A DNA stretch of 64,000 nt from Nocardia flavorosea NBRC 108225 (GCF_001613385.1 NZ_BDCG01000001.1:1-64000); one strand, 5' to 3'; positions 14,449-39,785 are shown, counted from the stretch's first letter. A program made the numbers and translations. Notes: a model not told the origin generated them from the sequence alone.

Positions 14449-14451
14449 CGG

Positions 14452-19565: not shown

Positions 19566-19640
19566 TGGTGCGGGCCCGGAAGGTTGGCAGCAGCGAAAAG
19601 CGCCCCCGGGGCTCTCCGGCGGCGGCAGAGAGGAGCACTC

Positions 19641-22706: not shown

Positions 22707-23507
22707 CTAATGGGACGCGAGGTCCATCGCGACGCACCGATCCCAGATCTCGCGCGCCGCTACCCGCACCTGGCCCACCAGTGTGCGGTAGTCGAGCGAG
22801 GTGACCGGTGCGCACACCGAGATCCCGGCCAGGTTGCCGTAGACGTGGTCGGGCGGCCCGAGGGAGACGCCGACGCAACCGAGACCGGGGAATGCCTCAC
22901 CGCGATCGAACGCCGCGCCCCGATTACGGACGGCAGCCAGATCGTCCGCGAGCTGGGCCTCGGTGGTGACACTCTGTGGTGTGCGCCGGGCCGGTGCTCC
23001 CTCGCCGGTGCGCCGGAGTTCGCCGAAGAGCGGCCGGCGGCCGGACTGTTCGGCGAATGCGAGCTGTGCCTTACCCACCGCGGTGAGATGGGCGGGTACC
23101 CGCTGCCCGACGGCCGTGGGAGTGGGACCGGAGGCGCGGCCGTTGACTTTGGCCAGATAGACGGTGTCGCCGCGGCTGATAACGGCGAGCTGGATGGTGA
23201 GCCCGGTGCGGTGCGCGAACGCCTGCATGATCGGCCGGGCGCCGTGCAACAGGCGGTTCTGGTTGAGCGCGGCCTGGCCCATTTCGTAAGCCTTGACCCC
23301 GAGCTCGTAGGTCTGTTCGGGGGAGCGTGCGAGCCAGCCGGTGTTCGTGAGCTGTTCCAGGAGCCGATGGACCGACGAGCGCGGCAGGCCGGTGCGGGAG
23401 GTGACCTGGGCGAGAGTGAGCGGACCCGCTCCGTTGAAGGTCTCCAGCACGAGGGATATCCGCTCGACCACCGAGACCGGCACCCCGGCGGGGCTTGATG
23501 TTCTCAT
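22707..23507 (-). CDS. IclR-family transcriptional regulator
   Basis: 266 residues. The ATG at 23507 is preferred because GGAGG stands directly upstream; in-frame GTG/ATG codons 21 bases earlier are possible. The N-terminal winged helix (about residues 10-65, TLAQVTSRTGLPRSSVHRLLEQL) is followed by the IclR effector domain (HLTAVGKAQLAFAEQ, GRASGP, GEAFPGLGCVGVSLG). It faces the KshA-type Rieske oxygenase gene across a 317-base region with a double inverted repeat at 23525-23548, within 20-40 bases of its own start. It probably controls itself and the 23825-27225 operon in response to an aromatic or steroid intermediate. Confidence 0.9.
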   Translation of the reverse strand: MRTSSPAGVPVSVVERISLVLETFNGAGPLTLAQVTSRTGLPRSSVHRLLEQLTNTGWLARSPEQTYELGVKAYEMGQAALNQNRLLHGARPIMQAFAHRTGLTIQLAVISRGDTVYLAKVNGRASGPTPTAVGQRVPAHLTAVGKAQLAFAEQSGRRPLFGELRRTGEGAPARRTPQSVTTEAQLADDLAAVRNRGAAFDRGEAFPGLGCVGVSLGPPDHVYGNLAGISVCAPVTSLDYRTLVGQVRVAAREIWDRCVAMDLASH

Positions 23508-23524
23508 TCGACCTCCAGCACGCA

Positions 23525-23548
23525 TCACAGCTCTGTGACGTGAGTCAC
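23525..23548. promoter_or_regulatory. Two overlapping inverted repeats, candidate IclR operator
   Basis: TCACAGCTCTGTGA (23525-23538) is a perfect 14-base palindrome, and GTGACGTGAGTCAC (23535-23548) holds perfect 5-base arms around GTGA; the two overlap by four bases. They lie 18-41 bases upstream of the IclR start and 277 bases upstream of the Rieske oxygenase. The remaining 23549-23824 shows no gene; it ends in the site CAGGAGG before GTG 23825. Confidence 0.55.
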
Positions 23549-23824: not shown

Positions 23825-25003
23825 GTGAGTCCCACGACCAACACCGGCAACCAAGTCCGTGTCATCGACACCGGCGCGCCGCCCGCGCGTTATGCCCGGG
23901 GCTGGCACTGCCTCGGTCTGACCCGTGACTTCGACGATGGCCGCCCGCATCAGATTTCCGCATTCGGCACCGAACTCGTCGTATACCGCGGCGAGGACGG
24001 GAAGGTGAATGTCCTCAACGCGTTCTGCCCGCATATGGGTGGCAATCTGGCCCACGGCACCGTGAAGGGCAACGATATCGCCTGTCCGTTCCACGACTGG
24101 CGGTGGCGGGGGGACGGGAAATGCGCGTCCATCCCGTACGCCCGCCGCGTGCCGCCGCTGGCGCGGACCAAGGCGTGGCCGACCTTGGAGGTCAGCGGGC
24201 AGTTGTTCGTCTGGAACGACCCGCAGGGCAGCAAGCCGCCCGCCGAGCTGGAGATTCCGGCGATCCCCACCTACGGCGATCCGGGATGGACGGACTGGGT
24301 GTGGAACTCGATCGTGGTCGAGGGTTCGCACTGCCGCGAAATCGTCGACAACGTCGTCGATATGGCGCATTTCTTCTACGTCCACTACGGCATGCCGACC
24401 TATTTCCGGAACGTCTTCGAGGGTCATACGGCGACGCAGATCATGCGGTCCCGCCCGCGTGCCGATGCGGCGGGAGTCAGTACCAGTACGAACTACAGCA
24501 CCGAAAGTCAGTCGGATGCCTCCTATTACGGGCCTTCGTACATGGTGGACAAGCTCTGGAGTGGCGGCCGGGCCGGCGCCGGTGAACCCAATATCTACCT
24601 GATCAACTGTCACTATCCGATCACCCCGACCTCGTTCCGGCTGCAGTACGGCGTGATGGTGGAGAAGCCGACCGGGATGGATGATGCCGCGGCGGAGGAG
24701 GTCGCCGCCGCCGTGGCCAAAGGCGTCGCGATCGGCTTCGAACAGGACGTGCAGATCTGGCAGAACAAATCGCGGATCGACAATCCGCTGTTGTGCGAAG
24801 AAGACGGCCCGGTCTACCAGTTACGCCGTTGGTATGAACAGTTCTACGTCGATATCGAGGACATCAAGCCGGAGATGGTCAACCGGTTCGAGTTCGAAAT
24901 CGATACCGAACGGGCCCTGCAGAATTGGCAAGCCGAGGTCGACGCAAACCTGGCCGCGGGCCGCAGCGCCATCCCGGCACACCTTCAGGCCGCGTCCGCC
25001 TGA
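23825..25003 (+). CDS. kshA: Rieske oxygenase, 3-ketosteroid 9-alpha-hydroxylase KshA homologue
   Basis: 392 residues from GTG 23825 (GGAGG six bases before). The Rieske [2Fe-2S] ligands are Cys68-x-His70 and Cys87-x2-His90. The mononuclear iron site is in DNVVDMAHFFYVHYG, with Asp179, His182, His187 and a third ligand near Asp308 (EQDVQIW). The segments ARGWHCLG, ACPFHDWRW, NPLL and YQLRRWYEQFYVDIEDIKPEM match KshA of Mycobacterium and Rhodococcus closely from memory. KshA hydroxylates C9 of 3-ketosteroids; with Delta1-dehydrogenation this opens ring B. Its reductase KshB is not in the window, so the ferredoxin/reductase at 5080-6698 or a distant KshB must supply electrons. First gene of an operon with HsaA- and HsaC-type genes. 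Confidence 0.9.
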   Translation: MSPTTNTGNQVRVIDTGAPPARYARGWHCLGLTRDFDDGRPHQISAFGTELVVYRGEDGKVNVLNAFCPHMGGNLAHGTVKGNDIACPFHDWRWRGDGKCASIPYARRVPPLARTKAWPTLEVSGQLFVWNDPQGSKPPAELEIPAIPTYGDPGWTDWVWNSIVVEGSHCREIVDNVVDMAHFFYVHYGMPTYFRNVFEGHTATQIMRSRPRADAAGVSTSTNYSTESQSDASYYGPSYMVDKLWSGGRAGAGEPNIYLINCHYPITPTSFRLQYGVMVEKPTGMDDAAAEEVAAAVAKGVAIGFEQDVQIWQNKSRIDNPLLCEEDGPVYQLRRWYEQFYVDIEDIKPEMVNRFEFEIDTERALQNWQAEVDANLAAGRSAIPAHLQAASA

Positions 25004-25054
25004 CCACTGACCCGAACCGATCCAGATTTCCAGATACCCGGACCAGGAGTTCCG

Positions 25055-26239
25055 ATGTCCTACGAAGTGCTCGACAAAATCGTCGCCATCGCCGACGAGA
25101 TCTGCGCCGGCGCGGCCGAGGGGGATTCCCTCGGCCGCCTGCCCGACGATATGGCCAAAGGCCTGAAGGACGCCGGGATCATCCGGTTGTTGCAGCGCAA
25201 GAAATACAACGGTTACGAGGCGCATCCGCGCGAGTTCGCCGAAACCGTGATGAAGACCGCGAGTATCTACGGTTCCGCCGGTTGGGTCGGCGGCATTGTG
25301 GGTGTGCATCCCTGGCAGCTCGCTTTCGCTGATCCCAGGGTGCAGGAGGAGATCCTCGGCACCGACAGCGATACCTGGCAGGCCTCGCCGTACATGCCCG
25401 GCGGTGTCGCCGTGCCGACAGGCGACGGTTATGTGATGAACGGCCGCTGGCAATTCTCCTCCGGCACCGATCATTGTGACTGGATTTTCCTCGGCGCCAT
25501 GGTGGGTGGCGCCGACGGCAAACCGTTGATGCCGCCGCAGAGCCTGCACGTCATTCTGCCCCGGACGGACTATGAGATCGTCGCGGATTCCTGGGATGTA
25601 GTCGGCCTGCGCGGCACCGGCAGCAAGGACATCATCGTCGAGAACGCCTTCATCCCGAACTACCGGGTGATGGACGGGGGGAAGGTTATCGACGGTACTG
25701 CGGCGAAAGATTACGGCGTCACGGAAACGCTCTACAAAATGCCCTGGTCCACCATGTTCCCGCTGGGTATCACCTCTGCGACGATCGGTATCTGCGAGGG
25801 CGTGCTCGCGGCGGGCGTCGACTATCAGCGCAACCGGGTCGGTGCGACCGGCACGCTCGTCAAGGACGATCCGTACGTTCTGCACGCGCTCGGCGAGGCC
25901 GCCTCGGAGATCGATGCGGCCCGCCAGCAACTGCTGGCCAATGTCGACCGTATCTGGGACAAGGTCGACCGCGGCGAGGAGATCGACTTCGAAACCCGTG
26001 CCGCGGTACGCCGCGATCAGGCCCGCGCCGCATGGCGGGCGGTCCGCGCCGCCGACGAGATCTTCGACCGGGCGGGCGGCAACGCGCTGCGGATGGACAA
26101 CGCACTCCAGCGGTTCTGGCGCGACGCCCACGCCGGCCTGCACCACGCCATCCACGTCACCAGCACCACCTATCACGCGGCGGCCATGGCGTCGCTCGGT
26201 GTGGAGGTCCCCGAGGGACCACTGCGCGTGATGATCTGA
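25055..26239 (+). CDS. hsaA: Flavin-dependent hydroxylase, HsaA-type (3-HSA hydroxylase oxygenase)
   Basis: A 394-residue group D flavin monooxygenase with acyl-CoA-dehydrogenase fold. Family segments are RLLQRKKYNGYEAHPREF, YGSAGWVGGIVGVHPW, WQFSSGTDHCDWIFLG, DVVGLRGTGSKDIIVENAF and, near the end, QRFWRDAHAGLHHA. They align well with HsaA, which hydroxylates the phenolic ring of 3-HSA (a 9,10-seco steroid) next to the existing OH to give a catechol, using FMNH2/FADH2 from the reductase HsaB. No HsaB-like gene is in the window. The gene follows the Rieske oxygenase by 51 bases and precedes the ring-cleavage dioxygenase by 29. Related enzymes act on other phenols, so the exact substrate is inferred from context. 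Confidence 0.9.
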   Translation: MSYEVLDKIVAIADEICAGAAEGDSLGRLPDDMAKGLKDAGIIRLLQRKKYNGYEAHPREFAETVMKTASIYGSAGWVGGIVGVHPWQLAFADPRVQEEILGTDSDTWQASPYMPGGVAVPTGDGYVMNGRWQFSSGTDHCDWIFLGAMVGGADGKPLMPPQSLHVILPRTDYEIVADSWDVVGLRGTGSKDIIVENAFIPNYRVMDGGKVIDGTAAKDYGVTETLYKMPWSTMFPLGITSATIGICEGVLAAGVDYQRNRVGATGTLVKDDPYVLHALGEAASEIDAARQQLLANVDRIWDKVDRGEEIDFETRAAVRRDQARAAWRAVRAADEIFDRAGGNALRMDNALQRFWRDAHAGLHHAIHVTSTTYHAAAMASLGVEVPEGPLRVMI

Positions 26240-26268
26240 CCAGCCCCGGAAAGGAATACAGACACACG

Positions 26269-27225
26269 ATGACGGAAATCAAAGCGCTCGGATACGTACG
26301 GGTTCAGGCCACCGATATGGAACGCTGGCGCGAACTCGGATTCGACGTCCTGGGTTTCGCACCGGGTTTCGGTGACGAAACCGACGCCCTGCACTTCCGG
26401 ATGGACGAGCGCGCCTCGCGCATCACCGTCGAACACGGTGAGGTCGACCGGGTGACCGCGGTCGGCTGGGAAGTGCGGGACGCGCTCGCGTTGCGCCGGC
26501 TGACCGCCACCCTGGACGAGGCCGGGTTCGCGTATACGCCCATGACCCAGGAGCTGGCCGACCGGCGCAAAGTCGAGGCCGGTATCTGCATGAAAGACCC
26601 CGGCGGCACACCGCTGGAATTCTTCTACGGGGCCGTGCTCGAGCACAGCCCGGTCATCACCAAGTACGGCCAGAAGTTCGTCACCGGCGAGCAGGGCCTG
26701 GGCCATGTGGTGATGCCCACGACCAACTTCGACGAATCGTTCACCTTCTACACCGAGACACTGGGCTTCCTGTCCCGCGGCGCCTTCCGGATGCAGGCCC
26801 CGCCGGAAGCAGGCCCGCTGCGGATCCGGTTCATGGGCGTGAACCAGCGCCATCACAGCCTGGCGATCATGCCCAGCATGGAGGGTCGCGATCCGGGACT
26901 GATCCACGTCATGGTCGAGGTGGACGAGCTCGACGCGGTCGGCCGCGCCTACGACCAGGTCATGGCCCGCGATTTCCCGGTGTCCTCGACATTGGGCCGG
27001 CATACGAACGACAAGATGATCTCCTTCTACGTGCGGGTACCCGGCGGCTGGGATATCGAATACGGCACCGGCGGCCGGCCCGTCGACGAGACCTACTACA
27101 CCGCCGAGGAGATCACCGCCGACAGCTACTGGGGTCACGAATGGCTGTGGGCCCGGGAGATGAAGGAAGCGCAGCGGGCCGCGGCGGCAGCGGAAGCCGG
27201 CGAGGGGGAAACGGCGCGAGCCTGA
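26269..27225 (+). CDS. hsaC: Extradiol (meta-cleavage) dioxygenase, HsaC-type
   Basis: A 318-residue type I extradiol dioxygenase made of two VOC-type domains. The Fe(II) ligands are His146 (GEQGLGHVVM), His213 (GLIHVMVEV) and Glu264 (WDIEYGTGG). The conserved His195 (NQRHHSLA) and His245/Tyr254 region (GRHTNDKMISFYV) complete the active site. Start and domain order match HsaC, which cleaves 3,4-DHSA, the catechol made by HsaA. The last 15 residues are Ala/Glu rich and poorly conserved. It is the third gene of the operon; a hairpin at 27318-27345 follows. Confidence 0.92.
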   Translation: MTEIKALGYVRVQATDMERWRELGFDVLGFAPGFGDETDALHFRMDERASRITVEHGEVDRVTAVGWEVRDALALRRLTATLDEAGFAYTPMTQELADRRKVEAGICMKDPGGTPLEFFYGAVLEHSPVITKYGQKFVTGEQGLGHVVMPTTNFDESFTFYTETLGFLSRGAFRMQAPPEAGPLRIRFMGVNQRHHSLAIMPSMEGRDPGLIHVMVEVDELDAVGRAYDQVMARDFPVSSTLGRHTNDKMISFYVRVPGGWDIEYGTGGRPVDETYYTAEEITADSYWGHEWLWAREMKEAQRAAAAAEAGEGETARA

Positions 27226-27925
27226 ACCCGCGGCAATTCCGGTGAGCACCCCCCCGGGCGGCCGAGTGTCCCGGGACGGTACACAAGCACCACAGGAGCC
27301 GTAGTCCTACTGACGGGCCGGCCGACGAATCTGCGAGTCGGCCGGTCGCCAGGCAGAGTCGGTGTGCCGAAGGGGTCGTGCCCGCTGCGCGGTCGATGGC
27401 GCCGGGGCACCGGACGGGCCGTGCCAGGCCGTCGAACCGGTGGGCCAGGCCGTCGAGCCCGGACAGGGGCGTATCCGCGGGACTTGCCTCTCGAGCCGAG
27501 AGAAACTATTCGGCCATACGGGTCATTGCCACGGGAGCCGGCCGCGCCGGGCGGGTTGACCAGGGCACGCGGCTCGGCAACCCGGGCGGGCCTCCGGCGG
27601 TATCGCAGGTCGCCACCGTGCGCACCACGGCCGCGAGCCGTCGGCGGAGCTCGGCGGCCGTGTCCGGAGGACAACCGCCGCCATGGGTTCAGGCGCGGGT
27701 GGCCGCTGCCGATGAAACCCCGCCGCCGAATCCGGTGCGGGCCCGGCGGGCGATTCCGAAGCCCGGAGGTACGACCCGCGGTGTCGCCACCGGGACGATC
27801 GCCACCCCGCCGGCGGTACGACTCGAATTGGAGGACCGCTGGGTGGGAACACACGCTCGACTCGCGCCGTGGGGCCCTTAATTTTGGCTTCGAACGCAGG
27901 TACCTCAGCGAGGGAAGTGAATGTT
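27226..27925. other. 700-base intergenic stretch, no gene recognised
   Basis: Apart from the hairpin at 27318-27345 nothing is assignable. Frames on both strands give Arg/Pro/Gly-rich sequence without motifs. The last 50 bases become AT-richer (CTTAATTTTGGCTT near 27880-27893) and probably contain the promoter of the Baeyer-Villiger operon. Confidence 0.45.
27318..27345. terminator. 9-bp hairpin downstream of the hsaC-type gene
   Basis: CCGGCCGAC (27318-27326), a 10-base loop and GTCGGCCGG (27337-27345) make a perfect 9-bp stem about 90 bases after the dioxygenase stop. It is a likely intrinsic terminator separating the kshA/hsaA/hsaC operon from the following one. Confidence 0.55.
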
Positions 27926-29551
27926 GTGACAACCCAGGACAGCGATTTCGATGCCGTCGTCGTCGGTGCCGGGATCTCCGGCCTGTACGCGGTGTACAAG
28001 TTCCGGCAGCGCGGTATGCGCGTGCAGGGCTTCGAATCCGCCGAGGGAGTGGGCGGCACCTGGTATCACAATCGGTACCCGGGTGCCCGATGCGATGTCG
28101 AGAGCATCGATTACTCCTACTCGTTCGACGACCAGTTGCAGCAGGAATGGACCTGGACCGAACGGTTCGCCACGCAAGAGGAGATCCTGCGCTACCTCGA
28201 CCATGTCGCCGATCGTCACGATCTGCGGTCGGCCTACGATTTCCTGACCCGGGTGACCTCGGCGGTCTACGACGAGAAGGCCGGACGGTGGACGGTCACC
28301 ACCGATACGGGAAAGACAATTACCGCCCGATTCTGCATTCTGGCGACGGGCGTACTGTCGGCCACCAACAAACCGGATATCCCGGGCCGGGACACCTTTG
28401 CGGGCGAGAGCTATCACACCGGTGAATGGCCGCACGAGCCGGTAGATTTCGCCGGAAAGCGCGTGGGCGTGATCGGAACGGGATCATCCGGTATCCAGGC
28501 GATACCGGTTATTGCGGAAGCGGCCGATCAGGTCGTCGTATTCCAGCGCAGCCCCAATTATTCGATCCCGGCGGGGAATCGGCGATTGACCGATGATGTC
28601 CTCGCCGAGGTGAAGGCCAATTATGCCGAGCGGCGCCGGTTGTCCCGGATCAGTGGTGGTGGCACACCGAACAGTCCGCACCCCAAAGGGGCGATGGAGG
28701 TCGACGAGGCCGAACGGACCCGGGTGTACGACGAATGGTGGCAGCGCGGTGGATATCTGTTCACCAAGGCGTTCCCGGATCAGATGGTGAGCAAGGCGGC
28801 AAACGACACCGCGCGGGTATACGTCGAAGCGAAGATCCGGGAAATGGTGGCGGACCCGGAGGTCGCAGAGCAGTTGATCCCCGACGATCACCCCATCGGC
28901 ACCAAGCGGATCGTCACCGATACGGGGTATTTCCAGACCTACAACCGGGACAACGTGACACTGGTCAACCTGCGGCGCACGCCGATCACCGAGATCACCG
29001 CGTCCGGTGTGCGGACCGGCGAAGCGTCCTATGACCTGGATATTCTCATCTTCGCGACCGGATTCGACGCGATGACCGGTTCGCTGTCGCGGATCGATAT
29101 ACGCGGCCGGGACGGCCGGGCACTGACAGCCGAGTGGTCTGCGGGGCCGCGAACCTACCTCGGGCTGGCCGTCGACGGTTTTCCGAATATGTTCATCCTC
29201 TCCGGTCCCGGCAGCCCCAGTGTGCTCGCGAATATGGTGCTGATGGCCGAGCAGCACGTCGACTGGGTCGCGTCCTGTATGGACCATCTGGATTCCCACG
29301 AGATCGCAACGATCGAGGCGACCCGGGAAGCGGCCGACGACTGGGTGGCCGAATGCAATGCCAAGGCCGCGGGGACCCTGTTCCCGACCGCGAATTCCTG
29401 GTATATGGGCGCGAATATCCCCGGTAAGCCACGCGTTTTCATGCCCTATATCGGTGGTTTCGGCAACTACAACACGATCTGCGCCGAAGTAGCGGCGGCC
29501 GGATACAAAGGTTTCGCACTCGACGGCCGGGCCGCGTCGGCGGACAACTGA
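27926..29551 (+). CDS. Baeyer-Villiger flavin monooxygenase
   Basis: 541 residues from GTG 27926 (GTG 27917 is an alternative). FAD motif G14-A-G-I-S-G19, the GGTWYHNRYPGARCDVES segment, the Baeyer-Villiger fingerprint FAGESYHTGEWP (residues 158-169, FxGxxxHTxxWP) and the NADPH motif GVIGTGSSGIQ are all present. These enzymes insert oxygen next to a ketone to give an ester or lactone. An HSL-type esterase and an SDR follow directly. The order monooxygenase, esterase, alcohol dehydrogenase matches conversion of a methyl-ketone side chain to an acetate ester, then an alcohol, then a ketone (as in progesterone degradation). That specific pathway is inferred, not shown. Confidence 0.95.
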   Translation: MTTQDSDFDAVVVGAGISGLYAVYKFRQRGMRVQGFESAEGVGGTWYHNRYPGARCDVESIDYSYSFDDQLQQEWTWTERFATQEEILRYLDHVADRHDLRSAYDFLTRVTSAVYDEKAGRWTVTTDTGKTITARFCILATGVLSATNKPDIPGRDTFAGESYHTGEWPHEPVDFAGKRVGVIGTGSSGIQAIPVIAEAADQVVVFQRSPNYSIPAGNRRLTDDVLAEVKANYAERRRLSRISGGGTPNSPHPKGAMEVDEAERTRVYDEWWQRGGYLFTKAFPDQMVSKAANDTARVYVEAKIREMVADPEVAEQLIPDDHPIGTKRIVTDTGYFQTYNRDNVTLVNLRRTPITEITASGVRTGEASYDLDILIFATGFDAMTGSLSRIDIRGRDGRALTAEWSAGPRTYLGLAVDGFPNMFILSGPGSPSVLANMVLMAEQHVDWVASCMDHLDSHEIATIEATREAADDWVAECNAKAAGTLFPTANSWYMGANIPGKPRVFMPYIGGFGNYNTICAEVAAAGYKGFALDGRAASADN

Positions 29552-29621
29552 CCGATCCGTACCGAATTCCGTGGCGCGAGCGCGCCTTTCCTATACGACG
29601 AAATGTGAGGACGTGGTCGAG

Positions 29622-30593
29622 ATGGGCGGACAACGAAGGTCCGACCTACATCCGGATGTCGAAGCGATGCTGGCGGCACTGGAATCGTTTCCGGATGTCA
29701 CCCAGCACACGGCGGCCGAGTTACGCGAGATCATCGCCTCGCGCCGCGCACCGTTGACGCGAGAGCCGCAGATGCGGATGGCGCGGGAGCGGATGATCGA
29801 CGGCCCGGGCGGGGAACTGGCAGTCCGCGTGTACGTACCGCACGGCGGCACCGGTCCGCGGCCGGTGGTGGTGTTCGCCCACGGCGGCGGCTTCGTCTTC
29901 TGCGATCTCGACAGTCACGACGAGTTCTGCCGGTCGATGGCCGCGGCAGTCGACGTCGTGGTGGTCTCGGTCGATTACCGGCGGGCCCCCGAGCATCCCG
30001 GACCGGCCGCGCTGGAGGATATGTACGCCGCGGTGCAGTGGACCGCCGGACACGCCGCGGAGTTCGGCGGCGACCCGAACCGGCTGGTGGTCGCCGGTGA
30101 CAGTGCCGGTGGAAATCTGGCGGCGACCGTGAGCCTGGCCGCCCGCGATCGCGGTGGGCCGGCGATCGCGGCGCAGGTTCTGCTCTACCCGGTGATCGAC
30201 GACGATTTCACCACCGAGTCCTACCGGCTCTACGGCGAGAACTACTACAACACGACCAAGGCGATGCGCTGGTACTGGCAGCAGTACGCCCCGCACGGAA
30301 CCGACAGCCCGTATCTGGTCCCGACCCGCGCCGAATCATTGGCCGGACTGCCCCGGGCGATCGTCGCGACCGCCGAACTCGATCCGCCGTGCTCGGCCGG
30401 CGACGACTACGCCCGGCAGCTCGCGGACGCCGGGGTTCCGGTCACTGCGCACCGTTTCGACGGGCTTTTCCACGGTTTCCTGACCTTCCCGTCGCTATCG
30501 CTCACCGGGCAGGCCCGCGAAAAGCTGTGGCAGATGATGCGGGACGTGCTGGCGGCCGATACGGCCACCGAGGTGAGCGGTGCGGCCGGGTGA
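29622..30593 (+). CDS. Alpha/beta-hydrolase, HSL-type esterase
   Basis: 323 residues; ATG 29622 is chosen, although in-frame GTG codons upstream (29571, 29613) exist and GAGG lies at 29607-29610. Motifs are HGGGFVFCDLDSHD (oxyanion hole), GDSAGGNLAA (nucleophile Ser), the acid in AELDPPCSAGDDYA and His in DGLFHGFLTF. It is cytosolic, without signal peptide. It lies 70 bases behind a Baeyer-Villiger monooxygenase, whose ester product is the natural candidate substrate. It is about the same length as its paralogue at 13492-14448. Confidence 0.93.
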   Translation: MGGQRRSDLHPDVEAMLAALESFPDVTQHTAAELREIIASRRAPLTREPQMRMARERMIDGPGGELAVRVYVPHGGTGPRPVVVFAHGGGFVFCDLDSHDEFCRSMAAAVDVVVVSVDYRRAPEHPGPAALEDMYAAVQWTAGHAAEFGGDPNRLVVAGDSAGGNLAATVSLAARDRGGPAIAAQVLLYPVIDDDFTTESYRLYGENYYNTTKAMRWYWQQYAPHGTDSPYLVPTRAESLAGLPRAIVATAELDPPCSAGDDYARQLADAGVPVTAHRFDGLFHGFLTFPSLSLTGQAREKLWQMMRDVLAADTATEVSGAAG

Positions 30594-30637
30594 CGAGAAC
30601 CGGGGCGGACGCCGAATCAATGAGTACGGAGAGGGAT

Positions 30638-31528
30638 ATGACGCAGCGATTGGCAGGCCGCACCGCCCTGGTGACCGGTAGCAGCCGTGGAATAGGCCGC
30701 GCGATCGCGCAGCGGCTGGCGGCCGAAGGTGCGACCGTCGTCGTCACCGCCCGGTCGGCATCGGCCCCGGCTCCGTCCGTGCGGGACGGCGCGACCCATC
30801 TGCTGGCCGGTTCGCTCGGCGAGACGGTGCAGGCGATCGAGAACGCCGGCGGCAAAGCGATCGCGATCCCGGCCGACCTCGAGGATCCCGAGCAGCGAGC
30901 CGGACTGGTCGACCAGGTTGTCGAGGCGGCCGGTGGCCTCGATATCCTGGTGAACAACGCGGGCTTCGCCGATTACAGCACGATCGCCGAAATGAGCGAC
31001 GCCACCTTCGATCGCACGATCGAGCACTATCTGAAAGTCCCGTTCATTCTCGCCCGCGCCGCGATCCCGCATATGCGCGAACGTGGTGCTGGCTGGATCG
31101 TCAATATCGGGTCCTCGACCGGGCTCGGCACCATCCGGCCGTTCCGTGCTTACAACAAGACCGCCGGTGATGTCATCTATGCCTCCGCGAAGGCCGGTCT
31201 GCACCGGCTCACTCAGGGGCTGGCCGCGGAAATGCTCGACGACGGTATCGCGGTGAACGCGGTAGGACCGTCGACGGCGATCATGACACCCGGTGCGTCG
31301 GCTCTGCTGCCGGACGGCTACGAAACCGAACCCGTCGAATACCTCGTGCAGACGGTGCTGGAGATGTCGACCGTGCCCGCCGTCGAACGCACAGGTCTGG
31401 TGGCTTTCAGCCTGCACTACCCGTACGCGACGAACACGCCCGTCATGTCGCTCGACGGGCGTACCGAACTGCCGCGGCGTGAACCCCCGGCGTGGGCGAA
31501 CCCGAATATCCTCCCGGAGGGTATCTGA
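30638..31528 (+). CDS. SDR oxidoreductase
   Basis: 296 residues from ATG 30638, preceded by GGAGAGGG; a second in-frame ATG at 30620 is less well placed. It carries TGSSRGIGRA, NNAG and the catalytic YASAK, with a Ser-rich strand (IVNIGSSTG). A long insert between the first strand and the Asp of the adenine pocket (SASAPAPSVRDGATHLLAGS) and an extended C-terminus with DGRTELPRREPP are unusual for a classical SDR. Third gene of the Baeyer-Villiger operon, ending one base into the next SDR start. It would be suited to oxidise the alcohol liberated by the esterase. Confidence 0.88.
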   Translation: MTQRLAGRTALVTGSSRGIGRAIAQRLAAEGATVVVTARSASAPAPSVRDGATHLLAGSLGETVQAIENAGGKAIAIPADLEDPEQRAGLVDQVVEAAGGLDILVNNAGFADYSTIAEMSDATFDRTIEHYLKVPFILARAAIPHMRERGAGWIVNIGSSTGLGTIRPFRAYNKTAGDVIYASAKAGLHRLTQGLAAEMLDDGIAVNAVGPSTAIMTPGASALLPDGYETEPVEYLVQTVLEMSTVPAVERTGLVAFSLHYPYATNTPVMSLDGRTELPRREPPAWANPNILPEGI

Positions 31529-32412
31529 TGGCCGCCACCGCGAAGGAGCGCTTCGCGGTGGGAACCGCCGTGGTTACCGGCGCCGCGGCGGGGATCGGTA
31601 AGGGTTTGGCGCAGCGGCTCGGCGAGTACGGGATGTTCGTCGTCGTCGCCGATATCGATACCGGACGTGCTACTGAGGTCGCGGCGAAGATCGTCGAAAG
31701 CGGCGGCCGTGCCGAGGGTTTCGGCGTCGATGTCGCCGACCCGGACCAGGTGGAGACGCTGGCGGCGACGCTCTTCGAGCGCTACGGCAGCGTGGAACTG
31801 CTGATCAACAATGCCGGTGTCGAATCGGCCGGCCTGCTGTGGGAGATCGACCCACAGCGGTGGCAGCGGGTGATGCAGATCAATGTGGACGGCGTCTTCT
31901 ACTGCCTGAAGTCGTTCGTGCCGCGCATGATCGACGCCGGCGCACCGGCCTGTATCGCAAACCTCTCCTCGGTCGGCGGGATCAACACCGTCGCCGTGCA
32001 ATCGCCCTATATCGTCAGCAAATTCGCGGTCCAGGCGATGACCGAATGCCTGCACCAGGACCTGTCCGTCGTGGGTGCGCCGATCCAGGTCAGCGCCGTC
32101 GTACCGCATTCCATCCGCAGCGAGATCTTCCTCACGGCACAGCGCGAGGCACCCACCACCAACCCCACCGCGAACGCCGTCTTCGCTGCCATGCAGCGCG
32201 ACAACGTAGAGAAAGGCCTCGATCCCCTCGACGCGGCCGCCCATATGCTCGAACAGATCGCCCGCGGCGATTTCTGGGTCTTCTCCGACGACGAGATGTG
32301 CACCGCCGCGGTGACTCGGCGCGGCCGGCAACTCGTCGGCCAGGACCCGCCCTCGAGCCCACGCGATATGCTCGCCCGGATGGGCGTGCCGCTCCCGGAA
32401 GGCAGCTCATGA
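31528..32412 (+). CDS. SDR oxidoreductase
   Basis: 294 residues from ATG 31528 (TGATG junction with the previous gene, CCGGAGGG site). The cofactor motif is TGAAAGIGKG, with NNAG and catalytic YIVSK preceded by NLSSVGG. A C-terminal extension (RDNVEKGLDPLDAAAHMLEQIARGDFWVFSDDEM) of the type seen in SDRs of cyclic ketone degradation is present. It ends with a 4-base overlap into the second Baeyer-Villiger-type gene. The cofactor pocket (ADIDT after strand 2) favours NAD+. Substrate unknown. Confidence 0.88.
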   Translation: MAATAKERFAVGTAVVTGAAAGIGKGLAQRLGEYGMFVVVADIDTGRATEVAAKIVESGGRAEGFGVDVADPDQVETLAATLFERYGSVELLINNAGVESAGLLWEIDPQRWQRVMQINVDGVFYCLKSFVPRMIDAGAPACIANLSSVGGINTVAVQSPYIVSKFAVQAMTECLHQDLSVVGAPIQVSAVVPHSIRSEIFLTAQREAPTTNPTANAVFAAMQRDNVEKGLDPLDAAAHMLEQIARGDFWVFSDDEMCTAAVTRRGRQLVGQDPPSSPRDMLARMGVPLPEGSS

Positions 32413-34382
32413 CAGGCACCATCGATACCGGTATCGACGCCACGGCCGATCCGGAAACCCTCCTGCACAACGCGATAGCGGAAGCCGAACCCGCTCCGCT
32501 GCTGATGTCGATGGTGCACGCCACCGGTGATACCGGTCTGCTCGAAGAATTCGGTGCGCGACTGACGCTCGAAGAACCCGGCAACCACTACCGCACCGGT
32601 ATCCGTCCGACCACCCCACCCGGCACCTATCCCGACGATGTCGCCGCCGATATCCGGGCCCGCGCCCGCGAGGTGCTCACGCCCGGGCTCGAACCGGAAC
32701 TCGGTGTTCCTGACGACGAGCTGTTCCGCTGGATGGCCGCCATCTGCACCGCGCAGCGGGTGGACGCCGAATTCGTTCCGATCCTGCTGGAACAGTCGGG
32801 TTTCACGAAGGACCGGCGCCATGTGCCGGTGACCGTCACCCCGCCCGCCGATTTCGAGGTCATCGTGATCGGCGCGGGAATGGTCGGGATCAACGCGGGA
32901 ATCAAGCTGGGCGAGGCCGGTTTCCCGTTCACCATCCTCGAGGAACGCGACGATATCGGCGGCACCTGGCATCGCAACACCTATCCCGGGGCAGCGGTGG
33001 ACACCCCCAGCCACTACTACTCCTACTCGTTCGAACTGAATCCGAACTGGTCGAAGTACTACCCGACCGGTATCGAATACCAGGACTACCTGCTCGATGT
33101 CGTCGAGAAGTACCGGTTACGCGAGCACATCCGGTTCGGCACCCGGGTTCGGTCGGCCACCTGGCTGACCGAAGAGAACCGGTGGGAAGTGGTGACCGAG
33201 GACAGTGCCGGCACGGTGCGCCGGCACCGGGCGCGCGCGGTCGTCACCGCGCTGGGCATGCTCAACGCCGCGAATATCCCCGATGTGCCGGGAATGGACA
33301 GCTTCGCCGGCACGATCACCCACACTGCCGAATGGGATACCGATCTCGACCTGCGCGGTAAACGGGTCGTAGTGCTGGGGACGGGTTGCACCGCGGTGCA
33401 GGTAGTGGCGAATATCGTCGACGAGGTCGAATCCCTGGACGTCGTCGTCCGCAGCCCGCACTGGCTGGTCCCTGAGAAAACCGTCGGCGGCGATGTGCCC
33501 CCGGGGGAGAAATGGGCGATGGCCAACCTGCCCTTCTACGACCGGTGGTTCCGGCTCCGCACGTACTGGTTCGCCTCGGACAACCTCTACGTGCTGCCCC
33601 GCATCGACAAAGAGTGGGCGGCCACGCACCTGTCGGCCTCACCGGCCAACGATATGGTGCTGAACACGGCGCTGGAGTACCTGCAGATGAGCTTCCCGGA
33701 CCGCCCCGACCTGGTCGAGAAACTCACCCCCGATTTCCGTCCGTACTCGAAACGGATCGTGAAGGATCCCGGATTCTTCGCGGCGCTCAACCGGGAGCAT
33801 GTGAGCCTGCACCGGGCCTCCTTCCGGGAGATCACCCCGGACGGTGTCGTCACGACGGACGGGACATTCATCCCCGCCGATGTGATCGTGCTGGCTACCG
33901 GTTTCCGGCTCCAGTTCACCACCGCCATCGATATCACCGGCCGGGACGGCCGCACCCTGGCCGACATCTGGAAGGGCGGTGAGGACCCCCGCGCCTATCG
34001 AGGCGTCCAGGTATCGGGTTTCCCGAACCTGTTCATCACCTCCGGGCCCAACTCGGCCCCGAACCACGGCGCGGGCCACAACATCACCGGTGAGGAACAG
34101 GTCCACTATCTCATCGAATGCCTGCAGTACCTGCTCGAGAACGACCACGCCGCCATGGACGTCGTACAGTCGGCGCAGGACGAGTACAACCGCCGGGTCG
34201 ACGAAGCACTCGACAAGACCGTATGGGTACATCCCGGCGCGGAGACCAACGGGTACTACCGCAACAGTTCGGGCCGGGCTGTCGTGCCGTGTCCGTGGCG
34301 TCTCGTCGACTACTGGACCCTGATGCGGGAACCGCAGCCCGAAGACCTCACATTCCTCCCGACCGGGAGGGCCGCCGAATGA
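32409..34382 (+). CDS. Baeyer-Villiger monooxygenase with N-terminal extension (HAPMO-like)
   Basis: 657 residues from ATG 32409, which overlaps the SDR stop. An N-terminal helical extension of about 150 residues precedes the FAD motif G155-A-G-M-V-G160, as in 4-hydroxyacetophenone monooxygenase and relatives. The fingerprint FAGTITHTAEWD (residues 299-310, FxGxxxHTxxWD) and the NADPH motif VVVLGTGCTAVQ are intact. It is a different subfamily from the monooxygenase at 27926, so the operon probably performs two distinct oxygen insertions, for example side chain and ring D. It overlaps the next gene by four bases. Confidence 0.95.
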   Translation: MTGTIDTGIDATADPETLLHNAIAEAEPAPLLMSMVHATGDTGLLEEFGARLTLEEPGNHYRTGIRPTTPPGTYPDDVAADIRARAREVLTPGLEPELGVPDDELFRWMAAICTAQRVDAEFVPILLEQSGFTKDRRHVPVTVTPPADFEVIVIGAGMVGINAGIKLGEAGFPFTILEERDDIGGTWHRNTYPGAAVDTPSHYYSYSFELNPNWSKYYPTGIEYQDYLLDVVEKYRLREHIRFGTRVRSATWLTEENRWEVVTEDSAGTVRRHRARAVVTALGMLNAANIPDVPGMDSFAGTITHTAEWDTDLDLRGKRVVVLGTGCTAVQVVANIVDEVESLDVVVRSPHWLVPEKTVGGDVPPGEKWAMANLPFYDRWFRLRTYWFASDNLYVLPRIDKEWAATHLSASPANDMVLNTALEYLQMSFPDRPDLVEKLTPDFRPYSKRIVKDPGFFAALNREHVSLHRASFREITPDGVVTTDGTFIPADVIVLATGFRLQFTTAIDITGRDGRTLADIWKGGEDPRAYRGVQVSGFPNLFITSGPNSAPNHGAGHNITGEEQVHYLIECLQYLLENDHAAMDVVQSAQDEYNRRVDEALDKTVWVHPGAETNGYYRNSSGRAVVPCPWRLVDYWTLMREPQPEDLTFLPTGRAAE

Positions 34383-35572
34383 CCACCACCCCCGTCCCCG
34401 ACGTCCTCGCTCCGGCGAGGTTGGGCCCGGTGACCCTGCGGAACCGGATCATCAAGTCGGCGACCTTCGAACACATGGCGCCCGGGGCGCTGGTCAGCGA
34501 TGAACTCATCGATTTCCATCGCCGGCTGGCCGTCGGCGGTGTCGGGCTGACGACCGTCGCGTATTGCGCGGTGGCGCCGGAAGGCCGGACCGAAGCGGAC
34601 CAGCTCTGGATGCGCGACGAGGCCGTCCCTGGATTGCGGCGACTCACCGACGCGGTCCATGAGCACGGCGGCGCTGTTTCCGCGCAGATCGGCCATGCCG
34701 GGCCGGTCGCGAACGGGAAATCGAACGGGCTGCCCGCACTGAGCGCGTCCCGGCGGATCACCCCGCTGGGGCCCCGGATCACGCATGCCGCGACACTGGC
34801 CGATATCGCCAGAATCCGGGAAGCACACGGTACGGCTACCCGGCTCGCTATCGAATCGGGGTTCGACGCGGTCGAAATCCATTTCGGCCACAATTATTTC
34901 GCCAGTTCCTTCCTGAGCCCGCTGCTCAACACGCGCACCGACTCCTACGGTGGTTCGCTGCGCAACCGGGCTCGGCTGGTGCGCGAAACCGCCGCGGAGG
35001 TCCGGGCCGCCGCCGGCGACCGGATCGCGGTCATCGCGAAACTCAATATGGACGACGGGGTCCCCGGCGGTTTCTGGCTCGACGAAGCGATCCAGGTCGC
35101 GCGGTGGCTCGAGGAAGACGGCAGCCTGGATGCCATCGAACTGACCATCGGCAGTTCGCTGCTCAACCCGATGTATTTGTTCAAGGGCGACGCGCCGCTG
35201 GCCGAGTTCGGTGCGGTGATGTCGCCGCTGATGCGGTTCGGGGTGAAGGTGGCCGGGAAGTACTTCCTGCACAGCTACCCGTACGAAGATCTGTTCATGC
35301 TCGACGCGGCCCGCCAGATCCGGGCGAGCGTGGATATGCCGCTGGTCCTACTGGGCGGAATCACCGATAAAGCAGCGATGGACACAGCGATGGCCGAGGG
35401 CTTCGAATACGTGGCCATGGCCCGGGCACTGCTGCGCGAACCCGACCTGATCAACCGGATCAGTGCGGACCACGCGGCGAAATCGCTGTGTATCCACTGC
35501 AACAAGTGCATGCCGACGATTTTCTACGGTACGCACTGCCCGCTGGCCACACCCCGGATGGCGGGGAACTAG
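34379..35572 (+). CDS. Old Yellow Enzyme-family NADH:flavin oxidoreductase with Cys cluster
   Basis: A 397-residue TIM-barrel FMN enzyme. It begins with the typical LAPARLGPVTLRNRIIKSATFE and contains IHFGHNYFASSFLSPLLNTR...YGGSLRNR, the substrate-site region. The C-terminus has C-x2-C-x2-C-x9-C (CIHCNKCMPTIFYGTHC), resembling the [4Fe-4S] site of 2,4-dienoyl-CoA-reductase-type members but with one residue less between the second and third Cys and without the following FAD/NAD domains. It should reduce or dehydrogenate an enone or dienone. The ATG at 34379 overlaps the monooxygenase stop. It is the last of four tightly overlapped genes. Confidence 0.9.
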   Translation: MTTTPVPDVLAPARLGPVTLRNRIIKSATFEHMAPGALVSDELIDFHRRLAVGGVGLTTVAYCAVAPEGRTEADQLWMRDEAVPGLRRLTDAVHEHGGAVSAQIGHAGPVANGKSNGLPALSASRRITPLGPRITHAATLADIARIREAHGTATRLAIESGFDAVEIHFGHNYFASSFLSPLLNTRTDSYGGSLRNRARLVRETAAEVRAAAGDRIAVIAKLNMDDGVPGGFWLDEAIQVARWLEEDGSLDAIELTIGSSLLNPMYLFKGDAPLAEFGAVMSPLMRFGVKVAGKYFLHSYPYEDLFMLDAARQIRASVDMPLVLLGGITDKAAMDTAMAEGFEYVAMARALLREPDLINRISADHAAKSLCIHCNKCMPTIFYGTHCPLATPRMAGN

Positions 35573-35755
35573 CCGGATCTGCCGGGCGCCGGCGCGAACC
35601 GAGACCGGGCGGTTCCGGTCACCGGGAGGACCCGGCTGCGCCGGTGGAGGAGCCGGTACCGTCGCATGTGCCGGCGCCGGGCGCTTCGTCGCCGCGGCCG
35701 GCGGCGCAAACCGGCCCTCACGATCACGCGCGATCCCGCCGGAAAGGGGCAGGTA

Positions 35756-36016
35756 ATGACGATGCGTCCGCTCGCCTGCGAGCGGTGCGGTACCCGGGTA
35801 CTGGTGGAGAAATTCAGTCCCGTCCACACCGCGGTGCAATGGACCTCCGACGCCCGGGAATGCCCGGTGATCTCGTCTCTCCACCTGGGGATCGGCGACC
35901 GCGAACGCGAATGCGAGGCGCTGCATCGCAGTATCGATCGCGCGGTGCGCGAGCACGAACTATCCGAATCGCGGATCGAACCGCCGCGCGGCGAGGCGAT
36001 TCCGCGACTTCATTGA
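35756..36016 (+). CDS. Small Cys-containing protein, possible zinc ribbon
   Basis: 86 residues from ATG 35756 (GGGGCAGG upstream). It begins MTMRPLACERCGTRVLVEKF and has Cys8-x2-Cys11, then further Cys residues near positions 36 and 53 (DARECPVIS, RERECEAL). The VLVEKFSPVHTAVQW segment is distinctive, and from memory related small proteins occur next to actinobacterial monooxygenase genes, usually annotated hypothetical. It could be a zinc-ribbon scaffold or a small electron carrier; four Cys would suffice for one metal centre. It lies in the Baeyer-Villiger operon between the OYE gene (183 bases) and the HsaD-type hydrolase gene (90 bases). Confidence 0.7.
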   Translation: MTMRPLACERCGTRVLVEKFSPVHTAVQWTSDARECPVISSLHLGIGDRERECEALHRSIDRAVREHELSESRIEPPRGEAIPRLH

Positions 36017-36106
36017 GGTGCCGTCCGCGACCGTCCCGGACACGCTGTGCCGCTCACCGGGAGTATGCGCCGACAGACCGCCGCGCCGATGGCAGGCTCG
36101 ATATCC

Positions 36107-36973
36107 ATGAGTACCCCAGTCGATACCCGAACCGTCCCCGAATTGCGTGAACTGCCGACCGAGCGCGGCGTCCTGCGGTACCGCGAGGCCGGGGACGGAC
36201 CGCCCCTGCTCCTGCTGCACGGGTCCGGTCCCGGCGTCACCGGATGGCGCAACTTCGGCGGTAACTTCGCCACATTCGCCGAGCACTACCGGACGCTGGT
36301 CCTGGAATTGCCCGGATTCGGTGTCAGCGACGACTTCGGTGCTGTGCACCCGATGATGTCCGCCCAGCAGGCGGTCACCGCTTTCCTGGACGGACTCGGA
36401 CTCGACCGGGTCCGCATCATCGGCAACTCGATGGGTGGCTTCGTAGCCACCGATTTCGCGCTCGCCGCACCCGACCGGGTCGAACGGCTGGTCACCATCG
36501 GCGGTATCGGCACGCCGGTGCTCAGCCCGCAGCCGGGCGAGGGGATCATCCGGCTCAGCGAGTTCGTCGACAACCCCACCCGGGAGGCGCTCGTGGCGTG
36601 GCTGCGCTCGATGGTGTTCGACCAGGCGCTGGTGACCGAGGAACTGATCGAACAGCGCTGGCAGCAGGCCACCGACCCGGCGACGTTGGAGAATTCGCGC
36701 CGCATGTACAGCAGTGCGGCGCTGGCGCGGATGGCCGCCGCCGCGCGCAGTGTGGACAGCACGCCGAACTGGGCCAAACTGGGCGGGCTCGCGGTACCGA
36801 CCCTCGTCACCTGGGGCCGTGACGACCGGGTCAGCCCGGTCGATATGGCGTTGCTGCCGATGCGCACCCTCCGTAACGGAGAGGTGCACATCTTCCCCAA
36901 CTGCGGCCACTGGGTGATGATCGAGCAGAAGGAAGCCTGGGAAGCTACCGTCCTGGCCTTCCTCCGCCGCTGA
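36107..36973 (+). CDS. hsaD: Meta-cleavage product C-C hydrolase, HsaD/MhpC-type
   Basis: 288 residues from ATG 36107. An upstream in-frame ATG at 36047 would add 20 unsupported residues. Motifs are LLLHGSGPGVTGWRNF (oxyanion loop), GNSMGGF (Ser108 nucleophile), WGRDDRVSP (Asp) and FPNCGHWVMIE (His). The region GEGIIRLSEFVDNPTREALVAWL closely resembles HsaD. It should hydrolyse the C-C bond of the extradiol cleavage product made by the HsaC-type enzyme, giving a dienoic acid and the C/D-ring acid. It is separated from hsaC by an entire operon, an arrangement that differs from the compact hsaACDB order. Confidence 0.88.
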   Translation: MSTPVDTRTVPELRELPTERGVLRYREAGDGPPLLLLHGSGPGVTGWRNFGGNFATFAEHYRTLVLELPGFGVSDDFGAVHPMMSAQQAVTAFLDGLGLDRVRIIGNSMGGFVATDFALAAPDRVERLVTIGGIGTPVLSPQPGEGIIRLSEFVDNPTREALVAWLRSMVFDQALVTEELIEQRWQQATDPATLENSRRMYSSAALARMAAAARSVDSTPNWAKLGGLAVPTLVTWGRDDRVSPVDMALLPMRTLRNGEVHIFPNCGHWVMIEQKEAWEATVLAFLRR

Positions 36974-36994: not shown

Positions 36995-37672
36995 TCACGC
37001 AGGCTCCGGCGCCGGGGCGATCACCGGCGCCGGAATCGTGCAGAAGCTATGGCAGATACGGTCTTTGACGATTTGATCCGGGCTTTCCGGATCGAACCAT
37101 TGATCCACCAGGGCCCAGTGCACAGGGTGATTCATATAAGGCCCGAGCAGGCCCTCGACATCGCCGAATTCCTGCTCCCAGACATGGGTCCACTGGGAGG
37201 TACCGGCGGCGCGATCGACGCGGCTGAGCTGCCACGCCTGGATCGCCGGAATGTGGCGGGGCATCTGCAGGGTGGCGTGCTCGAAGCGGGCGATCTCCGC
37301 CGGAGCGGCCGTATCGTCTACGCGTAAGAGCAGAGCGCGGTAGACCGTGGACGGATTCGCATCCTCGCGGCGGCCGGAGCGCCCGTCGCCGGGAGCGGCA
37401 CCCGGGTACTCGACGGAGTCGATATGGTCGATCGCCGGGCAGATCATGGCTTCGCCGATGGTCTCGCGGTGTGACAGCCACTCGGATTTCGACGCGAACC
37501 GGAAATGGGCGAGGAGATCGCCACCGTTGCGTACCCCGGGCAGGGTCCGGGCGACCAGCGGATGCCTCACCCCCACCGCTTCCGCGGCGGCGGTGAGGCG
37601 TTTGACGGTCATCTCCGTGGTCATGGCATCGGCGGGATCGGCCAGGTGCAGCAGGCACGTCACCTTATACAT
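36995..37672 (-). CDS. Double dimeric alpha/beta-barrel (Dabb-like) protein
   Basis: 225 residues starting MYKVTCLLHLADPADAMTTE at ATG 37672. A longer frame from 37690 is less likely because the upstream gene ends inside it. Two successive ferredoxin-like alpha/beta modules are visible: residues about 1-105, and 115-215 with YRALLLRVDD, HIPAIQAWQLSRV and WTHVWEQEFGDVEGLLGPYMNHPVHW. The second half has the spacing of stress-responsive A/B-barrel (Dabb) domains. Its start overlaps the previous gene by eight bases, so both are co-translated. Dabb proteins include cyclases, oxygenases and binding proteins; no catalytic residue can be assigned. Confidence 0.7.
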   Translation of the reverse strand: MYKVTCLLHLADPADAMTTEMTVKRLTAAAEAVGVRHPLVARTLPGVRNGGDLLAHFRFASKSEWLSHRETIGEAMICPAIDHIDSVEYPGAAPGDGRSGRREDANPSTVYRALLLRVDDTAAPAEIARFEHATLQMPRHIPAIQAWQLSRVDRAAGTSQWTHVWEQEFGDVEGLLGPYMNHPVHWALVDQWFDPESPDQIVKDRICHSFCTIPAPVIAPAPEPA

Positions 37673-38012
37673 CGCACAGTCCTTCCACATCCTCGGCGCA
37701 GCTCGCCATGGAACGGGTTCGTTCGACGATCACCGGCGCCATCGATTCCCACCACCGGGCCGGTCCGGGATCGTGCCGGGCCCCGACTGCCGCCGCCCAC
37801 CAGGCTCTGGGGCCCGGTACCGTCCAGGTGGCGGTGACGGTGTTGGTTTCACCGTCGATCCAGGCCGGCGGGCTCACCAGAATCCGATCGAGCGTCAGGC
37901 CCCGTTCGCGCGCCTGCGGCGCATAGCCGCTGAGATACGCGTCGATGAATGCGCGTGCGCTGCCGGGTCTGAGCACGATCCGATCGATGATGTAGATGGT
38001 GCGGTCGTCCAT
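37665..38012 (-). CDS. Single-module alpha/beta-barrel protein
   Basis: 115 residues from ATG 38012, starting MDDRTIYIIDRIVLRPGSAR. The pattern strand, helix (ARAFIDAYLSGYAPQARERG), strand (LTLDRILVSPP), strand (NTVTATWTVPG) and helix fits a ferredoxin-like dimeric barrel subunit of EthD/Dabb type. A C-terminal WWESMAPVIVERTRSMAS helix follows. It ends inside the start of the double-barrel gene. It is divergent from the PadR regulator (93-base gap), which probably controls the pair. Function unknown. Confidence 0.7.
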   Translation of the reverse strand: MDDRTIYIIDRIVLRPGSARAFIDAYLSGYAPQARERGLTLDRILVSPPAWIDGETNTVTATWTVPGPRAWWAAAVGARHDPGPARWWESMAPVIVERTRSMASCAEDVEGLCDV

Positions 38013-39614: not shown

Positions 39615-39633
39615 CTATTTCTATTAGAAATAG
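39615..39633. promoter_or_regulatory. Perfect inverted repeat, candidate IclR operator
   Basis: CTATTTC (39615-39621), spacer TATTA, GAAATAG (39627-39633). Outside this core, ATGG (39611-39614) and CCAT (39636-39639) extend the symmetry with an offset of two bases. It is an AT-rich island 42 bases upstream of the IclR start and 153 bases upstream of the kstD-type gene, likely overlapping a promoter. Binding by the adjacent IclR protein is inferred. Confidence 0.6.
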
Positions 39634-39785
39634 TGCCATAGACCCGTCAGTATGTGAAGCAGCTCACGAAGTTGGGAGGTCAGGAGGGGTTCCCGCTCAA
39701 TGGACACGTGGGCTGGTCCACCGGCTCGCGCGGCCTACGTTTATCTCCACTTGTCGTCCCGATCGGAATGTGGAGCCAGGACCAG

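Follow-up and report, generated by a model that had tools for sequence, protein, structure and literature searches.

A second steroid A/B-ring gene cluster of Nocardia flavorosea, probably directed at C21 3-ketosteroids

We analyzed the first 64 kb of the 153.5-kb contig C1 of Nocardia flavorosea NBRC 108225 (GCF_001613385.1, NZ_BDCG01000001.1:1-64000; genome 7.44 Mb, 67% GC). This whole stretch is called the window here. The subject of our study is a group of genes at 23825-36973 that resembles a steroid ring-opening set. The original prediction, made from the sequence, had named at this place KshA-, HsaA- and HsaC-like genes, two Baeyer-Villiger monooxygenases (BVMO1 and BVMO2), an esterase, two short-chain dehydrogenases/reductases (SDR1 and SDR2), an old yellow enzyme (OYE) and an HsaD-like gene. 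Every one of these genes was found in place, with an intact reading frame and a family match. In motif scans, both BVMOs showed the BVMO fingerprint and KshA the Rieske motif; the HsaD-like protein contained GNSMG, and the esterase contained HGGG as well as GDSAG.

The arrangement in two runs was also as proposed. The KshA, HsaA and HsaC genes are tightly spaced and co-directional (23825-27225). After a gap of 0.7 kb, the genes from BVMO1 to OYE follow in the same manner (27917-35572) and overlap or nearly overlap each other, and the HsaD-like gene comes last, behind a gap of about 0.5 kb. The prediction had missed a KstD gene, two IclR-family regulators and an upstream coenzyme A (CoA)-ester operon that is conserved with the cluster. 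The features are listed in Table 1.

Table 1. Genes and sites of the steroid cluster and its flanks (positions in the window; scores in bits)
Feature	Position	Strand	Basis
iclR1, IclR-family regulator, divergent from kshA	22707-23528	-	Pfam IclR_C and HTH_IclR; retained beside kshA in Nocardia, Rhodococcus, Gordonia
KshA, 3-ketosteroid 9alpha-hydroxylase oxygenase	23825-25003	+	KshA_C 287 (cut-off 23.3); GTG start, AGGAGG upstream
HsaA-like flavin monooxygenase (3-HSA hydroxylase, oxygenase part)	25055-26239	+	NF045629 375 (cut-off 450)
HsaC-like extradiol dioxygenase	26269-27225	+	NF045631 328 (cut-off 450)
BVMO1, steroid-monooxygenase type, predicted C17-C20 Baeyer-Villiger oxidation	27917-29551	+	Steroid monooxygenase clade; fingerprint FAGESYHTGEWP
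HSL-type esterase, predicted 17beta-acetate hydrolysis	29571-30593 (start possibly 29622)	+	Abhydrolase_3 246; LipP1 348.7 (cut-off 350); GDSAG
SDR1, candidate 17beta-hydroxysteroid dehydrogenase	30638-31528	+	adh_short; retained in 48/77 BVMO1 loci
SDR2, candidate hydroxysteroid dehydrogenase	31528-32412	+	adh_short
BVMO2, long type I BVMO with N-terminal extension of ~140 residues, candidate ring-D lactone-forming	32409-34382	+	FMO-like; fingerprint FAGTITHTAEWD
OYE-family ene-reductase	34379-35572	+	Oxidored_FMN
HsaD-like C-C hydrolase	36047-36973 (start possibly 36107)	+	NF045632 HsaD 250 (cut-off 400) vs BphD 179; tree
Dabb-domain protein	36995-37690	-	PF07876; same position in related loci
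iclR2, second IclR-family regulator	38794-39573	-	IclR_C, HTH_IclR
Perfect 17-bp palindrome TATTTCTATTAGAAATA, candidate IclR operator between iclR2 and kstD	39616-39632		Core motif rare, always beside iclR2
KstD, 3-ketosteroid delta-1-dehydrogenase, divergent from iclR2	39654-41510	+	NF009479 1024.7 (cut-off 793)
KstD-like FAD dehydrogenase, under family cut-offs	20887-22464	+	FAD_binding_2; best NCBIfam 426 (cut-off 675)
SDR, upstream part of conserved region	19551-20399	+	adh_short_C2
CoA-ester operon: enoyl-CoA hydratase (18708-19508), acyl-CoA dehydrogenases (17551-~18690, 16448-17554), CoA-transferase III (15177-16451)	15177-19508	-	Pfam and NCBIfam
GntR regulator (14452-15180) and second HSL-type esterase (13492-14448)	13492-15180	-	Pfam; conserved with the CoA-ester operon on pRHL1

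We then compared the ring-opening proteins with steroid enzymes and with aromatic degraders. All trees were made by a quick method, with support from the Shimodaira-Hasegawa-like approximate likelihood ratio test (SH-aLRT) only. KshA was 61% identical to KshA1 of Rhodococcus rhodochrous, the closest among solved structures, and 56% identical to both the Mycobacterium tuberculosis KshA and KshA5. In the tree it was located among the KshAs of BVMO1-containing loci, apart from the cholesterol group (M. tuberculosis and contig C4 of the present genome) and from the KshA1 and KshA5 groups; the basal order was not settled. HsaC was 46% identical to HsaC of M. tuberculosis, and 40% and 36% to BphC proteins. 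It grouped with its copy on pRHL1 of Rhodococcus jostii RHA1 and was separate from BphC. Because the long BphC branch was flagged in this quick tree, the placement of HsaC rests on the identity values as well as on the tree. The HsaA and HsaD trees agreed with the HsaC tree, and HsaA and HsaC fell in with proteins of other steroid clusters that are not of the cholesterol type, away from BphC and from distant paralogues. That is, the proteins fall with steroid enzymes and not with BphC-type aromatic degraders, and in these trees KshA, HsaA, HsaC and HsaD form non-cholesterol steroid clades. A KshA-family protein, a nearby KstD whose closest solved structures are 3-oxosteroid 1-dehydrogenases, and an HsaC placed with the steroid dioxygenases are features of a 9,10-seco A/B-ring set.

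The canonical set is encoded elsewhere in the same genome. On contig C4, HsaA, HsaC and HsaD passed the equivalog cut-offs (689, 557 and 506 bits) and lie beside a KshA; the window copies are only 40% (HsaA), 46% (HsaC), 37% (HsaD) and 56% (KshA) identical to them. The window set thus belongs to a second pathway apart from the classical locus, as had been suggested. The observation that no mce4-type genes lie near the cluster was likewise borne out: the genome has 37 MCE-domain matches, on contigs C3, C4, C8, C12, C16, C22 and C42, and none on C1. The regulators adjoining the window set are of the IclR type.

Three other places in the genome hold related genes. An HsaA paralogue on contig C22 (178049-179212; L158) is 61% identical to the window HsaA, closer than the canonical copy (40%), and no HsaC lies beside it in the stretch read. 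On contig C30 (5858-6492; loci L004, L008 and L016), a KshA-type gene extends over two frames, with overlapping matches to family positions 1-167 and 162-207; it is a broken or mis-sequenced copy. Farther along contig C1 (85668-95804; L010:1668-11876) there are a further KshA (65% identical to that of the window), an IclR regulator (58% to iclR2), a PadR regulator, a KstD-like FAD enzyme, three SDRs and a luciferase-like monooxygenase. This is possibly a second module for steroids with a short side chain; luciferase-like enzymes can also perform Baeyer-Villiger oxidation of progesterone (PMC12239570).

The first gene of the second run offers the best clue to the substrate. BVMO1 was 64% identical over 531 residues to the steroid monooxygenase (STMO) of R. 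rhodochrous (PDB 4aos), with which it shares the fingerprint and both Rossmann motifs, and 52% identical to PAMO. The tree put it in the STMO clade, with 99% SH-aLRT support and separate from both PAMO and a 51% paralogue in the same genome. The 20-kb stretch round that paralogue on contig C12 (L159) contains none of the ring genes HsaA, HsaC and HsaD. The closest relatives of BVMO1 were found in Nocardia carnea, N. flavorosea, N. speluncae and N. paucivorans (91-93% identity). STMO forms testosterone acetate from progesterone; it shows no lactonisation of androstenedione (PMC12239570). The esterase and two SDRs lie directly downstream of BVMO1, matching the next two steps of the progesterone side-chain route. 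A Rhodococcus qingshengii plasmid (NZ_CP147922.1; L118) carries an STMO-type BVMO (63%) and a KshA (57%) beside an ABC transporter, acyl-CoA dehydrogenases, MaoC-type hydratases, a thiolase and an OB-fold protein; here the same BVMO is combined with another kind of side-chain module.

The linkage of BVMO1 with the ring genes was examined in 77 loci, which were gathered by similarity to BVMO1 alone; neighbors were counted at >=55% identity within ~10 kb, and the counts are lower bounds, several loci being cut by contig ends. HsaA was present in 69 of the 77 loci, HsaC in 68, HsaD in 53, SDR1 in 48 and KshA in 24. Since HsaA and HsaC recur so constantly in loci selected by BVMO1, their linkage is not due to chance. 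Among 98 Nocardia genomes, 15 had BVMO1 (at least 79% identity). HsaA (at least 86%) occurred in 18, including all 15 with BVMO1, and BVMO2 (at least 82%) in 14, all of them among the same 15. We rely on these counts only; hypergeometric p-values ignore shared ancestry and were hence set aside. Patchy yet joint presence is the pattern that a transferable pathway would show. The modules of the cluster can separate, as in N. farcinica, where HsaC, BVMO1, the esterase, HsaD and KstD are together and HsaA and BVMO2 are on another replicon.

Because BVMO1 falls in the STMO clade and the esterase and SDRs come next, a pregnane fits best among the substrates that had been proposed. Bile acids and triterpenoids had been named as well, but they have no specific support, since a complete set for acid side chains was not seen in the core, and both KshA and KstD point to 3-ketosteroids. 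We therefore think that this is a second steroid catabolic cluster of Nocardia, and that its substrates are most likely C21 3-ketosteroids of the pregnane, progesterone-like type. The original prediction was thus right in outline, that is, as to a second steroid A/B-ring pathway, and we narrow its substrate to the pregnane type with moderate confidence.

From the genes, their family placement, their conservation and their linkage, all of which sequence comparison establishes, we infer the pregnane substrate, the sequence in which the enzymes act and what the esterase and the SDRs do, as follows. BVMO1 would place an oxygen atom in the C17-C20 bond of the 17-acetyl side chain and give the 17beta-acetate. 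The esterase would free the acetate, and an SDR would then oxidise the 17-hydroxyl to a ketone. On rings A and B, KstD would carry out the delta-1-dehydrogenation and KshA, with a KshB from elsewhere, the 9alpha-hydroxylation, leading to opening of ring B and a 9,10-seco phenol. Ring A would be hydroxylated by HsaA (with a flavin reductase from elsewhere), opened by meta-cleavage by HsaC and hydrolysed by HsaD. The leftover fragments may be finished by enzymes encoded elsewhere, for example in the canonical cholesterol regulon.

Several points weigh against this proposal. HsaA, HsaC and HsaD all score below their NCBIfam equivalog cut-offs (Table 1). These low scores are not evidence against steroid use, because the cholate-type HsaC of Prescottella equi, from a locus whose KshA groups with the cholate-linked KshA1, also reaches only 366 bits (cut-off 450). 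HsaB, KshB and HsaEFG were not among the annotated genes of the window, for which part of the open reading frames was scanned and no genome-wide search was made; no HsaB or KshB was found in the core, and all of these are presumably supplied from elsewhere. BVMO1, whose activity is predicted, is in a sister subclade of STMO, not in the same subclade, and promiscuity is possible among type I BVMOs. The CoA-transferase/acyl-CoA dehydrogenase module, BVMO2 and OYE are present, although a simple progesterone route needs none of them. Our literature search found no substrate assigned to the pRHL1 cluster, to BVMO2 or to any member of the cluster. Furthermore, the mycobacterial relatives seem to belong to a cluster whose described substrates are C19 steroids (PMC5962712).

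The last point leads to the reading that competes most seriously with a pregnane pathway: the cluster may scavenge C19 steroids (androstenedione, testosterone) like the mycobacterial C-19+ cluster, with BVMO1 as an accessory and pregnanes not the main substrate. We regard this as a real possibility, but one with clearly lesser odds. Of the only two hsaC genes in Mycobacterium neoaurum ATCC 25795, the second adjoins an STMO-clade BVMO (63% to BVMO1) on a contig that also holds KstD (66%), KshA (59%), BVMO2 (43%), OYE, an esterase and HsaD. A review states that the second steroid cluster of this strain is homologous to the C-19+ cluster of M. smegmatis (PMC5962712), and the order KstD-KstD-KshA resembles MSMEG_2867/2869/2870 (PMC5270728). 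That the M. neoaurum contig is the C-19+ homologue is our own reading, and the monooxygenase that the progesterone paper names for the M. smegmatis cluster is luciferase-like, not an STMO (PMC12239570). Moreover, HsaA and HsaC accompany BVMO1 nearly always and every Nocardia genome with BVMO1 has the window-type HsaA, which would be unexpected if BVMO1 were a dispensable accessory.

Acidic side chains of the bile-acid or C22-acid type, removed by the CoA-transferase, acyl-CoA dehydrogenases and hydratase, would give the CoA-ester operon (15177-19508) a task. This operon adjoins the counterparts of iclR1 and BVMO1 on pRHL1, whose genes have been called most similar to the cholate pathway (PMC4810484). 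The window KshA is closest to the cholate-linked KshA1 among solved structures, and the BVMO1 relative of R. qingshengii stands beside acyl-CoA dehydrogenases, MaoC-type hydratases and a thiolase. We nevertheless think this explanation unlikely: no thiolase or aldolase was seen in the CoA-ester operon of the window, acid side chains need no BVMO for a 20-ketone, and the CoA-ester module could act on ring C/D fragments instead. Degradation of a triterpenoid, an aryl ketone or another aromatic compound by related enzymes appears highly improbable. The sub-cut-off scores would suit it, and HsaC matches the BphC model slightly better (338 bits) than the HsaC model (328 bits). The P. equi control shows the same shortfall, HsaC is apart from BphC in the tree, BVMO1 is in the STMO clade, and KshA and KstD score above their cut-offs; on the latter scores and the tree placement we rejected a non-steroid aromatic pathway.

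BVMO2 may extend the pregnane route to ring D. In the fungal route from progesterone to testololactone, Baeyer-Villiger oxidation of the side chain is followed by ester hydrolysis, 17-oxidation and lactonisation of ring D. The operon order BVMO1-esterase-SDR-SDR-BVMO2 is collinear with these steps. We therefore speculate that BVMO2 might lactonise the 17-ketone, that the second esterase might open the lactone, and that the CoA-transferase/acyl-CoA dehydrogenase operon might degrade the acid, giving a bacterial catabolic route with Baeyer-Villiger opening of ring D. This idea, which we hold as rather doubtful, is based on the gene order, on the presence of BVMO2 in 14 of the 15 Nocardia genomes with BVMO1 and in no other of the 98, and on the finding that STMO does not lactonise androstenedione. 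The structure of BVMO2 was also modelled on an alignment of ten relatives; with a mean predicted local distance difference test score (pLDDT) of 50.8, the model was too poor for use. Relatives of BVMO2 (~40%, six matching places each) and of HsaA (~33%) occur on the same plasmids in the Tom series of Sphingobium sp. (AP027312-AP027342).

As for regulation, the AT-rich perfect palindrome between iclR2 and kstD stands out in this genome of 67% GC and is also kept next to iclR2 in N. carnea and N. speluncae. Its core TTTCTANTAGAAA occurred five times in 2.5 Mb of sequence searched, each time next to iclR2. The palindrome is thus a likely candidate for an IclR operator. Close relatives share a conserved block at 23726, 5' of kshA. 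A search for operator words shared between the kshA, BVMO1 and kstD promoters gave only GC-rich, chance-like matches, and a single regulon is therefore without support.

Downstream of the cluster, the gene at 48478-49449 encodes a 323-residue protein without a Pfam or NCBIfam match, and copies with 51-59% identity lie a few kb from BVMO1 in several mycobacteria. A DegT-type aminotransferase and an NtaA/DmoA-type FMN monooxygenase (43797-46500) are located between SDR3 and this gene; they look like an insertion, because SDR3 and the 48478 gene nearly adjoin in N. carnea (L039, L046). A terpene synthase (family 2) gene follows at 50351-51568 and is conserved, at 86%, right after the cluster in N. 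carnea.

The original prediction had called the pathway second and differently organised. It is apart from and unlike the canonical cholesterol cluster, which shares the families of the ring-opening enzymes but has Hsa proteins above the equivalog cut-offs on C4, and none reaches them in the window. It is not unprecedented, since the same gene set is already present on pRHL1, on pLRE138 of Rhodococcus erythropolis R138, and in other Nocardia, Gordonia and Williamsia. The pRHL1 cluster (cluster 4) shares with the window KshA (78%), HsaA (81%), HsaC (70%), HsaD (62%), BVMO1 (83%), BVMO2 (80%), the esterase (73%), KstD (66-72%), the IclR regulator (76%) and the upstream CoA-ester operon. From identities of 60-83% and the trees, the two clusters are judged orthologous. 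The kshA4 gene of cluster 4 is ro09003 (PMC4064121), and the set has been described before as a steroid A/B-ring cluster with an unknown function (PMC4810484). The ring set of pRHL1 is ~28 kb from the BVMO1 operon, and BVMO2 and KstD occur there in two copies, whereas in the window the two groups are adjacent. On pLRE138, the order IclR-KshA-HsaA-HsaC-BVMO1-esterase-SDR-SDR-BVMO2 is as in the window (67-80% identity), but no OYE or HsaD match was found in the same run. The C-19+ cluster of M. smegmatis and M. neoaurum also has a second ring set with KshA, KstD, HsaA, HsaC and HsaD, but its gene order and orientation are different and the identity is 43-68%, the M. neoaurum assignment being tentative.

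The cluster itself is thus of a known kind, and its functional reading is new as far as our literature search reached. Through the link to a steroid-monooxygenase operon, which is conserved in Nocardia, Rhodococcus, Gordonia, Williamsia and, rearranged, in mycobacteria, the pRHL1-type A/B-ring set gains a definite class of substrates that can be put to the test. According to PMC12239570, it was in 2025 that the genes leading progesterone into the 9,10-seco pathway were first elucidated, in a proteobacterium, and no pathway had been described round the STMO of R. rhodochrous. The pdc cluster of Caenibius tardaugens uses a type I BVMO to form testosterone acetate from progesterone as an entry to the 9,10-seco pathway (PMC12239570), as in the route proposed here. 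It differs from the window in comprising four genes only, in its BVMO, which has just 30% identity to STMO, and in its luciferase-like monooxygenase and its TetR and LuxR regulators; the ring genes are not part of it. The window cluster is a candidate for the actinobacterial pathway round the R. rhodochrous STMO-type enzyme.

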